From Sulfuricella sp. (GTDB taxonomy: Bacteria > Pseudomonadota > Gammaproteobacteria > Burkholderiales > Sulfuricellaceae), in assembly GCA_023266195.1 (NCBI GenBank), contig JAHFRP010000005.1, positions 1-64,000 of the forward strand: DNA of 64,000 nucleotides. Reading direction: 5' to 3'. A model generated the notes under the pieces. The model saw only the letters and a program-made list of their open reading frames with translations. It ran no database searches and had not been told where the DNA came from. Of this stretch, positions 8,581 through 64,000 are shown in pieces. Within the stretch, counting starts at the first letter, position 1. Each line of letters starts with the position of its first letter. Both the position numbers and the translations under genes were made by a program.

Positions 8581-9828
<1,248 letters not shown>

Positions 9829-59048: not shown

Positions 59049-59624
59049 TTACTCTGTTTCCAGCAGCCCGCGCATGGCTTTCTTGATCGATTCGACCGCT
59101 TCCGGGGCTTCGATTTCCATGATCTGGTCGATGATCCAGGGCTGGTCGCGCTTTTCCATGACTTCGTGGATGCGGTTGCCGAGGTAGCGCAGCGTGGCGA
59201 AGCCGGGTTTCTCGTCGGTCATCTCGAACGTGGCGTAGTCGGTCAGGCGCCGGTTGAGCAGGTCGATGAAGCCGGCCTGGTAGTCGTAGCCTTCGTCGTC
59301 ATGGGGCGCCACGTCGCGGATGTTTTCCTCCATGATCTCGGCCAGCCGCTTGGCCAGCGCCTGGATGAAGGCGGCGCGGGACGCGTCGTCGATACGGTTG
59401 TAGGCGAGGCGGTCGGCGAACTGGACCTCGAAAGCGAGGAATTCGGCCAGCAGGATGAAGCCGCGCTGCGGCGTGACGATGTCGTAGTCCGCCTTCGACA
59501 GGTTGGCGGTGAATTTGTCCGCCAGGCGCCACATGATCAGGGCCAGCACCGAGGCGGTTTCTCCCGCGTCCTTGGCTTCGCCGTCCTTCTTGAACCATTT
59601 GGTCTTGATCCGGATTCCGGCCAT
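59049..59624 (-). CDS. Conserved-looking protein of unknown function in the dsr-divergent cluster
   Basis: A 191-residue soluble, mostly helical and acidic protein without signal peptide or cysteine. I recognise no domain. Visible features are MWRLADKFTANLSKADYD, FILLAEFLAFEVQFADRLAY and a C-terminal MRGLLETE. The segment PGFATLRYLGNRI shares the hexapeptide GFATLR with the 74-aa protein at the other end of the cluster. It starts one base after the sulfurtransferase stop, so the two are translated from one message. A function in sulfur oxidation is suggested only by position. Confidence 0.75.
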   Translation of the reverse strand: MAGIRIKTKWFKKDGEAKDAGETASVLALIMWRLADKFTANLSKADYDIVTPQRGFILLAEFLAFEVQFADRLAYNRIDDASRAAFIQALAKRLAEIMEENIRDVAPHDDEGYDYQAGFIDLLNRRLTDYATFEMTDEKPGFATLRYLGNRIHEVMEKRDQPWIIDQIMEIEAPEAVESIKKAMRGLLETE

Positions 59625-59625
59625 C

Positions 59626-60474
59626 TTATTCTCCTGTGGCGACCGGGCGGGAGGGGTCGGCGATCCATTCGCTCCACGAACCGGGGTAAAGTTTGCCGCT
59701 CGGCAAGCCGGCGATTTCCATGGCGAGGATGTTGTGGCTGGCGGTCACACCCGACCCGCATGTGTGGATGACCTGCTCCGGCGCAATGCCGTGGAGCACG
59801 CCGAGATAGGCTTCGCGCAATTCCTCGGCGGGCAGGTAGGTGCCGTCCATGTCGATATTTTCTTCGAAGGTCCAGTTGATCGAGCCGGGGATGTGGCCGG
59901 CGACCTTGTCCAGCGGCTCGCGCTCCCCGGCGAAGCGGTCTTCCGGCCGGGCGTCGATGACCAGACGGCCGGGATCCTGCCGGGCCTGGTCGACTTCGGC
60001 GGCATCCGCCCACAGCGCATTTTGCGCCTGGGGCATAAAGCGGGCCGGGGCGATTTCCGGCGGCTCGGTCGAGATCGGGTGTTTTTGCCGCATCCAGCGC
60101 GGCAGGCCGCCGTCGAGCAGGGCGACGGCATCGTGGCCGAGCCAGCGTAGCAGCCACCACATCCTGACCGCCATCGCGCCGAAACTGTCGTCGTAGACGA
60201 CGACCTGTTTGGTCCCGTCCACGCCCCAGCGCCCGAGTTTTTCGGCCAGGAGCTGGGGGTCGGGCAGCGGGTGGCGGCCGCTGGCGGGCGTGATCGGCGA
60301 AGACAAATCCTCGTCCAGATGGGCGTAGCGCGCGCCGGGAATGTGGCCGCACAGGTAAGCATTGCGGCCCGCTTCGGGATCGGTGAGGGTAAAGCGGCAA
60401 TCGAAAACGATCCAGTTCGGGTCGTCGAGGTGTTGAGCGAGTTGCTCGGTGGAAACGAGGGTAGTGTGTTTCAT
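59626..60474 (-). CDS. Sulfurtransferase, 3-mercaptopyruvate sulfurtransferase type
   Basis: A 282-residue protein with tandem rhodanese domains. The N-terminal inactive domain has WIVFDCRFTLTDPEAG and HIPGARYAHLDEDLS. The C-terminal domain has VIDARPEDRFAGE, HIPGSINW and the active-site loop CGSGVTA, the form typical of mercaptopyruvate rather than thiosulfate sulfurtransferases. It is cytoplasmic. Close to dsrAB and a DsrC-like gene, it may deliver sulfane sulfur into the Dsr relay, as rhodanese-TusA-DsrE relays do elsewhere; that link is inference. It is separated from the DsrC-like gene by 98 bases containing a palindrome. Confidence 0.9.
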   Translation of the reverse strand: MKHTTLVSTEQLAQHLDDPNWIVFDCRFTLTDPEAGRNAYLCGHIPGARYAHLDEDLSSPITPASGRHPLPDPQLLAEKLGRWGVDGTKQVVVYDDSFGAMAVRMWWLLRWLGHDAVALLDGGLPRWMRQKHPISTEPPEIAPARFMPQAQNALWADAAEVDQARQDPGRLVIDARPEDRFAGEREPLDKVAGHIPGSINWTFEENIDMDGTYLPAEELREAYLGVLHGIAPEQVIHTCGSGVTASHNILAMEIAGLPSGKLYPGSWSEWIADPSRPVATGE

Positions 60475-60572: not shown

Positions 60573-60902
60573 TTAGTAACCGCCCTTGCCGTAAGGCTTC
60601 GGCAGGCCCGCCACTTTGGCGGACTGCTTGGCCGGCATTTCGGGAAATTGGCTGTAGAGATATTTGCTGTCGGTGCCGGGGCGAATCTTTTCCCAGTCCT
60701 TCAGCATGTTGCGGAAGGTCGGCGTGTGGCCGTGTTCCTTGTATTGCTCGCGCATGTAGTTGACGATTGCCCAGCGTTCGTCGTTCATCTTGAGGCCTTC
60801 TGCTTCGGCGATGACGGAAACGATTTCATCGCCGTAATCGGGTTCCAGCAGGTAGCCTTCTTCGTCGGTTTCGATTTCAGTGCCGTTGACAACATATCCC
60901 AT
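60573..60902 (-). CDS. DsrC/TusE-family protein lacking both redox cysteines (RspA-like)
   Basis: A 109-residue DsrC-fold protein. Family marks are VNGTEIETDEEGYLLEP, the helix-turn-helix-like middle, SKYLYSQFPEMPAKQSAKVAGLPKP and a C-terminal arm. True DsrC carries one cysteine in the AKQAC segment and a second as the penultimate residue. Here these read AKQSAK and PYGKGGY, and the protein has no cysteine at all. It therefore cannot carry persulfide or trisulfide. Cysteine-free DsrC paralogues have been called RspA and proposed to act in regulation. AGGAGG-type sequence just upstream of the ATG is a strong ribosome binding site. Confidence 0.88.
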   Translation of the reverse strand: MGYVVNGTEIETDEEGYLLEPDYGDEIVSVIAEAEGLKMNDERWAIVNYMREQYKEHGHTPTFRNMLKDWEKIRPGTDSKYLYSQFPEMPAKQSAKVAGLPKPYGKGGY

Positions 60903-60957: not shown

Positions 60958-61578
60958 CTACACTAGAGCATTGGTGGATTTGTGCGGTATAAAAATGCCG
61001 CAGCCAATTTTGCGGTTGCCGCCCATGCCGCGCTGCTGCACCAGAATCGACTGATCCACCGGCAGGTCGTGCAGCATCAGGCTGTGGCCGTAGGCGTAAC
61101 CTTCGCCGGTGGCGACGGTCTGATGCCGTCCGCAGATGAAGCGGCAGGTGATCTTCAATTCGTCGAGCAGGCCGATGACGTCGCGGGTGAAGCCTTCCTC
61201 GTCCGTGCTGCCGGTGGTGACGCAGTGGGCGTAGAGCGGGGTATGCCGCGTCAATGGCCTGGTCTTGCCCTTGCCGATCGTGAGCGAGTGGCCGTCCACG
61301 GCGATGGTGTGGCCGGACAGCGTCGCCAGGTCGGCTTCCCGCTCGACGGGAATGCGCACGATCAGGCGCGCGCGGCGGTTCAGGATCAGCAGATCGTCCC
61401 GGCCGGTTTCCGCGCCGTGGATGGGATGCACCCCCACCCGTTCCTCGTCGGCCAGCCAGGGCAGCAGGCGCGCCAGTTCGAGGAACAGCCGGTAGCCGTG
61501 ATCGCGCGGCAGCAGCGTTCCCTGCAGGTCGAAGCAAACATCGGTCACTGCGGCTTCGTCGACCGCGAGAATGACCAT
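60958..61578 (-). CDS. Stand-alone Cas6/Cmx6-like RAMP protein
   Basis: A 206-residue protein resembling the Cas6/Cmx6 group, RNA-cleaving RAMP proteins normally encoded with CRISPR systems. Supporting segments are DVCFDLQGTLLPRDHGYRLF at the first ferredoxin-like fold, VGVHPIHGAETG, RRARLIVRIPVER, LYAHCVTTG and a C-terminal glycine-rich loop RGMGGNRKIGCGIFIPHK. The last fits the RAMP G-loop. No CRISPR repeats or other cas genes are in the window. Start ATG 61578 is chosen because homology-like sequence begins there; the frame extends to 61860. It sits 20 bases after the 74-aa gene and 55 before the DsrC-like gene. The role is unknown; RNA processing is inference from fold. Confidence 0.75.
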   Translation of the reverse strand: MVILAVDEAAVTDVCFDLQGTLLPRDHGYRLFLELARLLPWLADEERVGVHPIHGAETGRDDLLILNRRARLIVRIPVEREADLATLSGHTIAVDGHSLTIGKGKTRPLTRHTPLYAHCVTTGSTDEEGFTRDVIGLLDELKITCRFICGRHQTVATGEGYAYGHSLMLHDLPVDQSILVQQRGMGGNRKIGCGIFIPHKSTNALV

Positions 61579-61598: not shown

Positions 61599-61823
61599 CT
61601 ATTTTTCCACTCCTTCGTCGTTGTGCGTTTTCGCCCAGTCCAGCAGAGCCAGCCCCCAGTGCTTGGCGGTGGCCGCGTCGATGTCGAATACGGTAAAGCG
61701 CTTGCTCTCGCGTATCCGCACCCGTAGCGTGGCAAAGCCGGCCTCGTGGTCCACGTGCTGGAGTTCGATCTCCTGGCGGAACGGCGAGGAGGTGAATTTG
61801 TCGAGCTTGGTGATTTCTTCCAT
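61599..61823 (-). CDS. 74-aa protein of unknown function, first gene of the dsr-divergent cluster
   Basis: A small protein starting at ATG 61823 (EEITKLDKFTSSPFRQEIELQ), beta-rich then helical, with AGFATLRVRIRESKRFTVFDID and a C-terminal WGLALLDWAKTHNDEGVEK. The frame extends upstream to 61994, but that part is rich in Cys/Arg and looks non-coding. I do not recognise a family. It would be the first gene transcribed leftward from the gap upstream of dsrA. It shares GFATLR with the 191-aa protein. Confidence 0.65.
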   Translation of the reverse strand: MEEITKLDKFTSSPFRQEIELQHVDHEAGFATLRVRIRESKRFTVFDIDAATAKHWGLALLDWAKTHNDEGVEK

Positions 61824-62344
61824 CGTAAAAAACCAATCGCAATATCGGGCAAAGGCGCACCCTGGATCAACGGCTTCACAATCGGTCGCGGAAACTGCCC
61901 CTTGACCGCGCCGTGAATATTTTGCAAACTCGCAACCTCGCAAGCAGAAACGGTCGAGCGAAATTTTGATTCCCGGCCCGATCCGCCCAAGCAAGACAAG
62001 CAGCGTGTTGCGTCATTATATGGGGAAAGGGTGGCCCGAAATCAAGAGGTTGCCGGGCTGCATCCCCAAGCAGGTAGATGACGGATAATCCCAATGGGTA
62101 GTATCCGGCACCCGCGAAGAATGATGGAAATGCATTCTTGGCAGGCTGTAATATTCGAGGACGGTAACGCGGACCCTTCTGACAGTGGATTCTGTCGATT
62201 TAGGCGTGCAGGGCAGAAGGCGCTTTCAACCGCCAGTTTTTGAGATTTATCTTGATAAGTTTTATCCAGGGTGCCGGCGCGGCGGTTTTGCCGGGCAGGA
62301 CTGGAACTTGCGTTCGTTTCAAATTTTTTTGGAGATAAAACCTT
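61824..62344. other. Divergent regulatory region between the cluster and dsrA
   Basis: A 521-base gap with no convincing gene on either strand. It must hold the promoters for both the leftward five-gene cluster and the rightward dsrAB operon. A candidate dsrA promoter with an internal dyad lies at 62240-62268. AT-rich patches also occur near 62000-62020 and 62315-62340. Confidence 0.55.
62240..62268 (+). promoter_or_regulatory. Candidate dsrA promoter with internal dyad
   Basis: TTGAGA at 62240-62245 and TATCCA at 62263-62268 are 17 bases apart. The spacer contains the perfect dyad TTATC-TT-GATAA at 62247-62258, placed where a regulator could block or bend the promoter. The dsrA start is about 70 bases downstream, with GGAG at about 62331-62334 as ribosome binding site. 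Confidence 0.4.
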
Positions 62345-63643
62345 ATGGCTAAGAAACAATACGACACGCCAATGCTCGATCAACTGGAAAGCGGCCCCTG
62401 GCCCAGCTTCGTGACCGGCCTCAAGCGCCTCGCCAAAGACAACGACATGATGGTTGACCTGCTCGGTCAGCTGGAAACTTCCTACAAGACCAAAAAAGGC
62501 TACTGGAAGGGCGGCACCGTCGGCGTGTTCGGCTATGGCGGCGGCGTAATCCCGCGCTTCACCGAACTCAAGGACGAGCACGAGAAGCCTATTTTCCCCG
62601 ATGCGGCCGAATTCCACACCCTGCGCATCATGCCGCCGGGCGGCATGCACTACACTACCGACCTGCTGCGCAAATTCTGCGACGTGTGGGAAAAGCATGG
62701 TTCCGGCCTGATCGCATTGCACGGCCAGTCCGGCGACATCATGTTCCAGGGCGCCACCACGGCAAACGTGCAAATCGCGTTCGACGAGTTCAACGAAATG
62801 GGTTTCGACCTGGGTGGTGCCGGTCCCGCCGTGCGTACCTCCATGTCCTGCGTCGGCGCCGCGCGCTGCGAGCAGTCCTGTTTTGACGAAGCCCGCGCCA
62901 TGCGCTCCACCGTCAACAACTTCCTCGACGACATGCACCGTCCGGCGCTGCCATACAAGTTCAAGTTCAAGTTCTCCGGCTGCGCCAACGACTGCGTCAA
63001 CTCGATCCAGCGTTCCGACATGGCCGTGATCGGCACCTGGCGCGACAGCATCCAGACCGACGACGCGCTGGGCAAGAAGTGGTTCGCCAAGCACGGCATG
63101 GACGAGCTGGTCAACGACGTCATCACCCGCTGCCCGACCAAGGCGCTGAGCCTGAAGAACACCGCCGACGTATCCAAGGCGGAAGGCATTTCCAGCGTCG
63201 CGCTCAACGACAGCCAGTCGCTGCAGATCGAGAACCACAACTGCGTGCGCTGCATGCACTGCGTCAACGTCATGACCGGCGCGCTGGCTCCGGGCAAGGA
63301 CAAGGGCGCAACCATCCTGATCGGCGGCAAGAGCGTGCTGAAGATCGGCGCTACCATGGGTACCGTGATCGTTCCGTTCATGAAGCTGGAATCCGACGAG
63401 GACTTCGACGCCCTGAACGAGCTGGGCCAGAACGCCATCGACTTCTTCGCCGAAAACGCGCTGGAGCATGAGCGCACCGGCGAAATGATCGACCGTATCG
63501 GTCTGGTCAACTTCCTCGAAGGCATCGGCGTCGAGATCGACCCGAGCATGGTGCTCCATCCGCGTGCCAATCCCTACATCCGCACCGACGGCTGGGACGA
63601 GGAAGTCGAGAAGGCCGAACAGCGCAAGGCAAACGCGGCTTGA
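62345..63643 (+). CDS. dsrA: Reverse dissimilatory sulfite reductase alpha subunit
   Basis: A 432-residue subunit of cytoplasmic sirohaem sulfite reductase, which in sulfur oxidisers works in reverse to turn DsrC-bound sulfur into sulfite. Cysteines for the sirohaem-linked 4Fe-4S cluster lie at C169, C175 (SCVGAARCEQSC) and C213, C217 (SGCANDC). A ferredoxin-like insert has C263 and C300/C303/C306 (CVRCMHC). The oxidative direction is inferred from the associated DsrS-like, cytochrome and sulfurtransferase genes and the proteobacterial background, not from a residue test. dsrB follows after 55 bases. Confidence 0.96.
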   Translation: MAKKQYDTPMLDQLESGPWPSFVTGLKRLAKDNDMMVDLLGQLETSYKTKKGYWKGGTVGVFGYGGGVIPRFTELKDEHEKPIFPDAAEFHTLRIMPPGGMHYTTDLLRKFCDVWEKHGSGLIALHGQSGDIMFQGATTANVQIAFDEFNEMGFDLGGAGPAVRTSMSCVGAARCEQSCFDEARAMRSTVNNFLDDMHRPALPYKFKFKFSGCANDCVNSIQRSDMAVIGTWRDSIQTDDALGKKWFAKHGMDELVNDVITRCPTKALSLKNTADVSKAEGISSVALNDSQSLQIENHNCVRCMHCVNVMTGALAPGKDKGATILIGGKSVLKIGATMGTVIVPFMKLESDEDFDALNELGQNAIDFFAENALEHERTGEMIDRIGLVNFLEGIGVEIDPSMVLHPRANPYIRTDGWDEEVEKAEQRKANAA

Positions 63644-63698
63644 TGCCAGGGCTACCCGGCTCAAGTGAACATTACTAGATAAGTGTTTGGAGAGAATA

Positions 63699-64000
63699 AT
63701 GACTGAAATGCGTGAACCGATCGAGAGCGGCGTGCCAGACCACGTGCAGTACCTGCACCCGCTGATGAAAAAGAACTACGGCAACTGGAAATACCACGAC
63801 CGCCCCCGTCCCGGCGTGCTGCACCATGTGGCGCACGGCGGCGATGAAATCTGGACCGTGCGTGCCGGTACCCAGCGTCAGATGGACCATTACACCATTC
63901 GCAAGCTGTGCGACATCGCCGACAATTTCGCCGAAGGCCATGTGCGTTTCACCATTCGCAGCAACATCGAATTCATGGTGTCCGCCGAGAGCAAGGTCGC
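63699..64000 (+). CDS. dsrB: Reverse dissimilatory sulfite reductase beta subunit (truncated by window end)
   Basis: Only the first 100 residues are inside the window. They read MTEMREPIESGVPDHVQYLHP, then KKNYGNWKYHDRPRPGVLHHV and FTIRSNIEFMV, matching the DsrB N-terminus. The ATG at 63699 has GGAGAG at 63689-63694. The remainder of the operon (normally dsrEFHC and the membrane complex genes) would lie beyond the window. Confidence 0.93.
   Translation, partial: MTEMREPIESGVPDHVQYLHPLMKKNYGNWKYHDRPRPGVLHHVAHGGDEIWTVRAGTQRQMDHYTIRKLCDIADNFAEGHVRFTIRSNIEFMVSAESKV

Follow-up and report, generated by a model that had tools for sequence, protein, structure and literature searches.

The closest described proteins are the Cas6/Cmx6 proteins of type I-MYXAN (TIGR02807, PF09559), which include the Cas6 of the CAST structure 8fcj, and these relatives adjoin cas3 and other cas genes. 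The glycine-rich loop of Cas6 proteins usually contacts RNA. Stand-alone Cas6 proteins, such as that of Pyrococcus furiosus, have a like fold and are encoded away from the effector complex. As reported in PMC3652601, the P. furiosus enzyme needs Tyr31 and His46, while a Sulfolobus Cas6 without the histidine can still cleave. On the sulfur side of the locus, the nearest described proteins are DsrC/TusE, with two C-terminal redox cysteines, and the viral and SUP05 DsrC-like proteins of the dsrC_1 type, which are described as having no second C-terminal cysteine (PMC4164917). No paper reporting a Cas6 linked to dsr was found in the open-access literature, outside which most subscription journals lie.

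In the window (the whole 64-kb stretch of DNA that was analysed), a Cas6/Cmx6-fold protein of 206 aa is encoded at 60958..61578 on the minus strand, with the ATG at 61578 and the stop codon ending at 60958, and RGMGGNRKIGCGIF is present in its translation. The protein scored 154 bits against TIGR02807 (cas6_cmx6; cut-off 98.85) in the NCBIfam search and 207 bits against PF09559 (Cas6; cut-off 26.7) in the Pfam search, and the PADLOC Cas6 profile matched it with an E value of 5.5e-60. Its best PDB sequence match was 8fcj_B (E 3.4e-17), which is Cas6 from a type I-B CAST. The AlphaFold2 model (pLDDT 91.5, pTM 0.87) was matched by Foldseek to the same chain with a TM of 0.86 at 1.7 A, and the structures ranked below it were other Cas6 proteins, including Pyrococcus Cas6 (3i4h, TM 0.63). 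As far as prediction goes, the Cas6 fold of the protein is settled. The earlier note on this DNA had proposed from the letters alone the reading frame, a Cas6/Cmx6 fold to be checked by profile search and structure prediction, a C-terminal glycine-rich loop, and DsrC-like and sulfurtransferase genes as neighbours divergent from dsrAB. Each of these was borne out: the frame lies on the minus strand, the profile cut-offs were passed, and a DsrC-like gene, a two-domain rhodanese gene and a divergent dsrA are present. A structure with no RAMP fold, which would have spoken against the proposal, was also looked for, and the model carries the Cas6 fold.

Residues were compared in an alignment of 8 reference rows with 121 beta rows (that is, from Burkholderiales loci; 99 distinct) and 34 gamma rows. 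The references all come from cyanobacteria or a CAST, and L165 among them has no adjacent cas gene. Throughout, the class was taken as GTDB Gammaproteobacteria, Burkholderiales included. A histidine at column 43, after helix 1, was found in 6 of the 8 reference rows, the other 2 being without it, and in none of the 155 dsr-linked rows, 2 of which have a gap at this column. We take column 43 to be His46 of Pyrococcus Cas6, on the basis of sequence and not of a superposition; it is presumably the catalytic position, and on this alignment the dsr-linked proteins differ from the P. furiosus enzyme in missing the histidine. Some histidine within columns 40-47 was present in 10 of the 121 beta rows and in 3 of the 34 gamma rows. 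H27 was retained in 90/121 beta and 33/34 gamma rows. Near-invariant R69, E127, G150 and K200 set the dsr-linked rows apart from the reference rows, and H199 was present in 119/121 beta and 28/34 gamma rows. The loop glycines G184, G186, G192 and G194 were found in nearly all rows of every group. The dsr-linked rows were acidic (median net charge -2, pI 6.4), whereas the 8 reference rows were basic (+6.5, pI 9.4).

A quick, unrooted tree of 88 rows, with few references, split the dsr-linked rows from the reference rows (SH-aLRT 99) and placed the gamma rows in one group (97). Compared with type I-MYXAN Cas6/Cmx6, the dsr-linked proteins share the profiles, the fold, the glycine-rich loop and a GCGxF motif but differ in being a separate, acidic clade with the four distinctive residues and no aligned histidine, encoded beside dsr rather than beside cas genes. 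Since neither the aligned histidine nor an association with CRISPR was found, they were treated as a dsr-linked clade of their own rather than as type I-MYXAN Cas6. The gene was shown to be under purifying selection within the genus, with dN/dS values of 0.05-0.21 for 21 pairs from 7 genomes. As a separate observation, the Cmx6 homologue at L165:4974-5765 (Gloeobacter plasmid pGMOR1) has no annotated cas gene within 5 kb and lies near a gene of the phosphoadenosine phosphosulfate reductase family, and is perhaps another CRISPR-free use; related plasmid records carry the GO term for maintenance of CRISPR repeats.

The reading that we favour, and consider rather likely, is that the dsr-linked protein is an anciently co-opted Cas6 that partners the Dsr machinery in a binding or regulatory role. 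We infer that it is no longer a crRNA-type nuclease; RNA binding, or cleavage by other residues, is conceivable. The activity named in the earlier note, that of an RNA endonuclease, was not supported, given the absence of a histidine at column 43 and the acidic character of the family. It is unlikely, in our judgement, that the protein has remained a ribonuclease by means of other catalytic residues, directed at the dsr leader, at a polycistronic dsr mRNA or at a small RNA. Such an enzyme would be consistent with the retained Cas6 fold and glycine-rich loop, and the near-invariant R69, E127, G150 and K200, with the mostly present H199, could make a new site; Cas6 enzymes without the histidine are also reported (PMC3652601). 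Against this, the family is acidic and the canonical histidine position is changed in every ungapped row.

The data bearing on an RNA target came from the intergenic stretch that separates dsrA from the divergent Cas6-like cluster (61836..62344, unstranded), which contains blocks conserved in the genus and had a mean column identity of 74% in an alignment of 8 genomes. The covariation term of its consensus fold was unfavourable (+0.65), and no Rfam match above the gathering score was obtained in the region. A palindrome of the type ACCC-N4-GGGTAG, with one mismatch here, lies at 62085..62104 (unstranded) and is conserved in beta regions, 92 of 98 of which carried it at two or fewer mismatches (some genomes counted twice). 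Among 94 distinct beta regions it was exact in 42, had one mismatch in 21 and two in 25. Mononucleotide shuffles gave expectations of 0.05, 0.95 and 11.7, respectively, and chance may therefore account for as many as half of the regions with two mismatches. In gamma regions the motif was absent from 20 of 28 and was present with two mismatches only in 8. A conserved RNA stem around the palindrome was considered as the ligand and found no general support in a flank-swap test on 85 distinct sequences, in which the mean folding energies with own and swapped flanks were -23.9 and -22.1 kcal/mol. As a sequence's own flanks folded better in just 45 of the 85, a DNA operator is the simpler reading, and the palindrome is accordingly described here as a candidate operator. 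The ribonuclease alternative can point to a few loci (L058, L125, L144 and L155) in which the palindrome upstream of dsrA is lengthened into long perfect inverted repeats of differing sequence, but the same test gives no general maintenance of a stem and the missing Rfam match also weighs against it. The dsr message or regulatory RNA suggested earlier as the ligand was not found, the palindrome upstream of dsrA having failed the RNA-stem test.

The favoured reading, that of a co-opted Cas6 partnered with the Dsr machinery, also draws on the gene order. The Cas6-like gene is preceded by a gene for a small DUF6967 protein at 61599..61823 on the minus strand (PF22295, 97.8 bits), the start of which was set at a conserved MEEIT, the longest reading frame reaching 61994. 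It is followed, all on the minus strand, by the DsrC-like gene (60573..60902), by a two-domain rhodanese sulfurtransferase gene (59626..60474; PF00581 in two stretches) and, as the last gene of the cluster, by a gene for a conserved, all-helical protein of 191 aa (59049..59624; model pLDDT 85.9), for which no Pfam or NCBIfam match above cut-off and no PDB fold match with E <= 0.001 was obtained. Divergent from the cluster on the plus strand are dsrA (62345..63643; TIGR02064, 512.6 bits) and the start of dsrB (63687..63998). The dsrB fragment matched positions 2-79 of the 341 in the TIGR02066 profile (E 3.1e-34), and its 118.5 bits fall below the whole-protein cut-off because the gene is cut by the window end. 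The reverse (oxidising) type of dsr is established for Thiobacillus and its like, and the dsr genes here are presumably of this type, judging by the organisms. Elsewhere in the window, an Rfam match to the anti-hemB sRNA (RF02837, 68.4 bits) lies at 8583-8679 on the minus strand.

The same order was found in the 39 Burkholderiales loci, which were taken around matches found without a motif filter: DUF6967, the Cas6-like gene, the DsrC-like gene, often rhodanese (missing in several loci) and the 191-aa protein, with dsrA divergent in 38 of 39. DUF6967 adjoined the Cas6-like gene in all 39; elsewhere in the class it was present in just 3 of the 80 genomes examined. Public genomes were scanned with the pattern GCG[IVL]F[IV]PHK, which gave 561 matches, of which 559 were relatives; a divergent dsrA was present in 77 of the best 80, loci that partly repeat the 39 and are preselected by the pattern for the PHK tail. 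Among cultivable organisms, Thiobacillus thioparus DSM 505 and Sulfuriferula multivorans TTN each have a homologue. Among the 34 gamma loci with the Cas6-like gene, dsrA was divergent in 28, and 6 (for example that of G632) had no dsrA in the stretch examined. A common gamma order was a TauD-like protein, a 64-aa protein, the Cas6-like gene and the DsrC-like gene. The 64-aa protein, which belongs to no Pfam family, and the TauD-like dioxygenase often precede the Cas6-like gene, as at L213:8713-8904 and L218:9557-10501.

The DsrC-like protein adjoined the Cas6-like gene in 39/39 beta and 26/34 gamma loci. It matches PF04358 and TIGR03342 above cut-off, as DsrC/TusE proteins do, but the window copy ends in KGGY and has neither of the two redox cysteines that DsrC bears at its C-terminus. 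A GKGGY tail was present in 93 of 94 beta rows (partly overlapping the 39 loci, the remaining row being cut by an X), so that the last cysteine of DsrC is replaced, and all 26 adjacent gamma copies had the KGGY tail. Of the 94 beta rows, 11 retained the second cysteine; none of the 26 gamma copies did. The tail and this cysteine occur together in L123, L124, L126, L129, L132, L135, L137, L142, L149, L063 and L068, which are possible intermediates. Other DsrC copies in gamma loci ended in PTGC[VI] in 27 of 28 cases. The missing second C-terminal cysteine is a feature shared with the dsrC_1-type proteins of viruses and SUP05, a likeness drawn by description only. The position of the KGGY tail at the place of the last cysteine suggests a protein that docks like DsrC with no like carriage of sulfur.

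These neighbours could also be read as partners in sulfur trafficking, with the Cas6-like protein as a protein-only scaffold or effector that would work with DsrC, rhodanese and TusA proteins and have no RNA binding left. We consider this rather improbable. Sulfur carriers and sulfurtransferases are indeed its neighbours, a two-domain TusA protein stands in its stead in genome G102, and the basic charge of the reference proteins is absent. The glycine-rich loop, however, is kept in nearly all rows, and local RNA binding is compatible with the net charge.

The tie of the Cas6-like gene to dsr was also seen in its distribution. The first sample consisted of 150 relatives, the genome of origin included, in which the Cas6-like gene, dsrA and Cas1 were scored. 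The Cas6-like gene was present in 40 and dsrA in 42; 38 genomes had both, 2 the Cas6-like gene only, 4 dsrA only and 106 neither (Fisher p 1.5e-28), corresponding to 38/42 genomes with dsrA versus 2/108 without. The two carriers with no dsrA match are 74% and 79% complete, and one has a dsrA fragment at a contig edge (L070). Among the relatives with dsrA and no Cas6-like gene, the dsrA of G140 is located close to the end of a contig of 4 kb. In G006, one dsrA is truncated by a contig end and a second has no cluster neighbours, and the only dsrA of G001 resembles this second one. In G102, DUF6967 and the 191-aa protein are kept, and between them, in place of the Cas6-like and DsrC-like genes, lies a gene for a protein with two TusA domains (L161:9864-10352), an arrangement that suggests a functional substitute. 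As observations apart, a second dsrA in the genome of origin, on contig C17 (L163), has no Cas6-like cluster beside it, and the Cas6-like match of G122 (L066; G122:C6:30287-30853) contains one TAA stop, and the gene may be decaying there.

A class-level sample of 274 genomes contained 92 with dsrA, and 80 of the 91 besides the genome of origin were tested for the Cas6-like gene, the 11 left out being mostly of low completeness or with a cut dsrA. The gene was found in 76 of the 80. Of the other four, dsrA lies at a contig end in G633 and G726, and in G646 the contig stops at the place where the gene is expected, with TauD-like and 64-aa-type reading frames visible. In G730, 8.7 kb upstream of dsrA are visible and hold no Cas6-like gene. 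The absences in G102 and G730 indicate that the gene is dispensable in some lineages. In a phylum sample of 398 genomes (two draws taken as one set), the gene was present in 5/5 dsrA-bearing genomes of the same order and in 0/48 dsrA-bearing genomes of other classes, which limits the tie to this class. The Cas6-like gene is tied to dsr within this class and not to dsr everywhere.

No comparable tie to CRISPR was observed. Among the 150 relatives, 21 had both the Cas6-like gene and Cas1, 19 the Cas6-like gene only, 47 Cas1 only and 63 neither (p 0.35), the tally of 68 genomes with Cas1 including weak, partial matches above cut-off. Cas1 was therefore absent from 19 of the 40 carriers; 18 of the 40 had neither Cas1 nor a Cas3 over the cut-off, a strict threshold that even the Cas3 of the host does not reach. 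At class level, Cas1 was absent in 37 of 77 carriers (the 76 plus G387). Carriers without Cas1 include genomes in a single contig (G014, G387, G546, G561, G571, G605, G607, G632 and G655), and the gene is present in genomes of 1.0-1.1 Mb (G566, G664 and G772), none of which has Cas1. Arrays were sought as exact 22-mers in at least 3 copies spaced 45-110, with a script that recovered the control array (L032). No array-like repeats were found by it in the 64-kb window, and they were found in 1 of 160 locus stretches, 154 of which carry the Cas6-like gene. The sole case (L246:15598) lies about 7 kb from the Cas6-like gene; its repeat unit is palindromic and may be a REP element rather than CRISPR.

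The description "without any CRISPR" given earlier holds for the window but not for the genome, since a type I-C system and an array of 22 copies lie on contig C34 (L032:5649-15235). Cas1 is on this contig, Cas2 is a TIGR01573 match, and the best or near-best profile matches of Cas3, Cas4, Cas5c, Cas7 and Cas8c are of type I-C. In type I-C systems crRNA is processed by Cas5 and there is no Cas6. Type I-C is assigned by cas8c together with the absence of cas6, as described in PMC5944118. The host system needs no Cas6, and the Cas6-like gene is therefore unexplained by it. The related claim that the gene is tied to dsr and independent of CRISPR was upheld by the gene order and the genome counts above; close homologues, which might always have been encoded with CRISPR, are not so tied. 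That the dsr-linked Cas6 processes crRNA in trans for a CRISPR system elsewhere in the genome is very improbable. Its family name, its fold and the host array would fit, but the host has its own Cas5c, and the proposal was rejected on the Cas1 and Cas3 counts among carriers. It is hardly credible that the gene is a chance or hitchhiking neighbour with no function in sulfur metabolism: although such a function is itself a prediction, the gene is kept in Burkholderiales and in other genomes of the class, the 1.0-1.1 Mb ones included, is under purifying selection in the genus, and persists in the 6 of 34 gamma loci without dsrA in the stretch examined. A viral origin was also rejected, as a pattern scan gave no relative in IMG/VR, no PHROG matched, and the single viral fold match with E <= 0.001 had a TM of 0.32.

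The maintenance of the gene alongside dsr, its altered active site and its usual partner make co-option the safest inference, and apart from any mechanism we regard co-option of a Cas6-family protein for dsr as very probable. Descent is presumed to have run from CRISPR to dsr, the tree being unrooted. A Cas6-family protein would have left a CRISPR-type ancestor and become fixed as an accessory of reverse Dsr in one proteobacterial class. The role that we favour for it is a binding or regulatory one on Dsr expression or activity, with about even odds for the mechanism. In the mechanism proposed, a Cas6-like binding subunit and the KGGY-tailed DsrC-like protein would tune the expression or activity of DsrAB to the sulfur supply, perhaps through an RNA ligand, the Cas6-like subunit adding recognition of RNA or of another protein. 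More tentatively, and with considerable doubt, a Cas6-derived RNA-binding subunit could form a riboregulatory switch for reverse Dsr with a DsrC paralogue that lacks the sulfur-carrying last cysteine and reads the sulfur load.

The protein that gene databases name a CRISPR protein is near-universal in the sampled dsrA-bearing genomes of the class and is encoded mostly beside dsrAB. Automatic "Cas6/Cmx6" calls in such genomes should therefore not be counted as CRISPR. The dsr-linked Cas6 offers a part so far missing from a pathway of global importance, and would represent a recruitment of Cas6 to metabolism that is independent of CRISPR. If the riboregulatory switch is true, CRISPR machinery would, throughout a class of sulfur oxidisers, have been permanently rebuilt to control an energy pathway.
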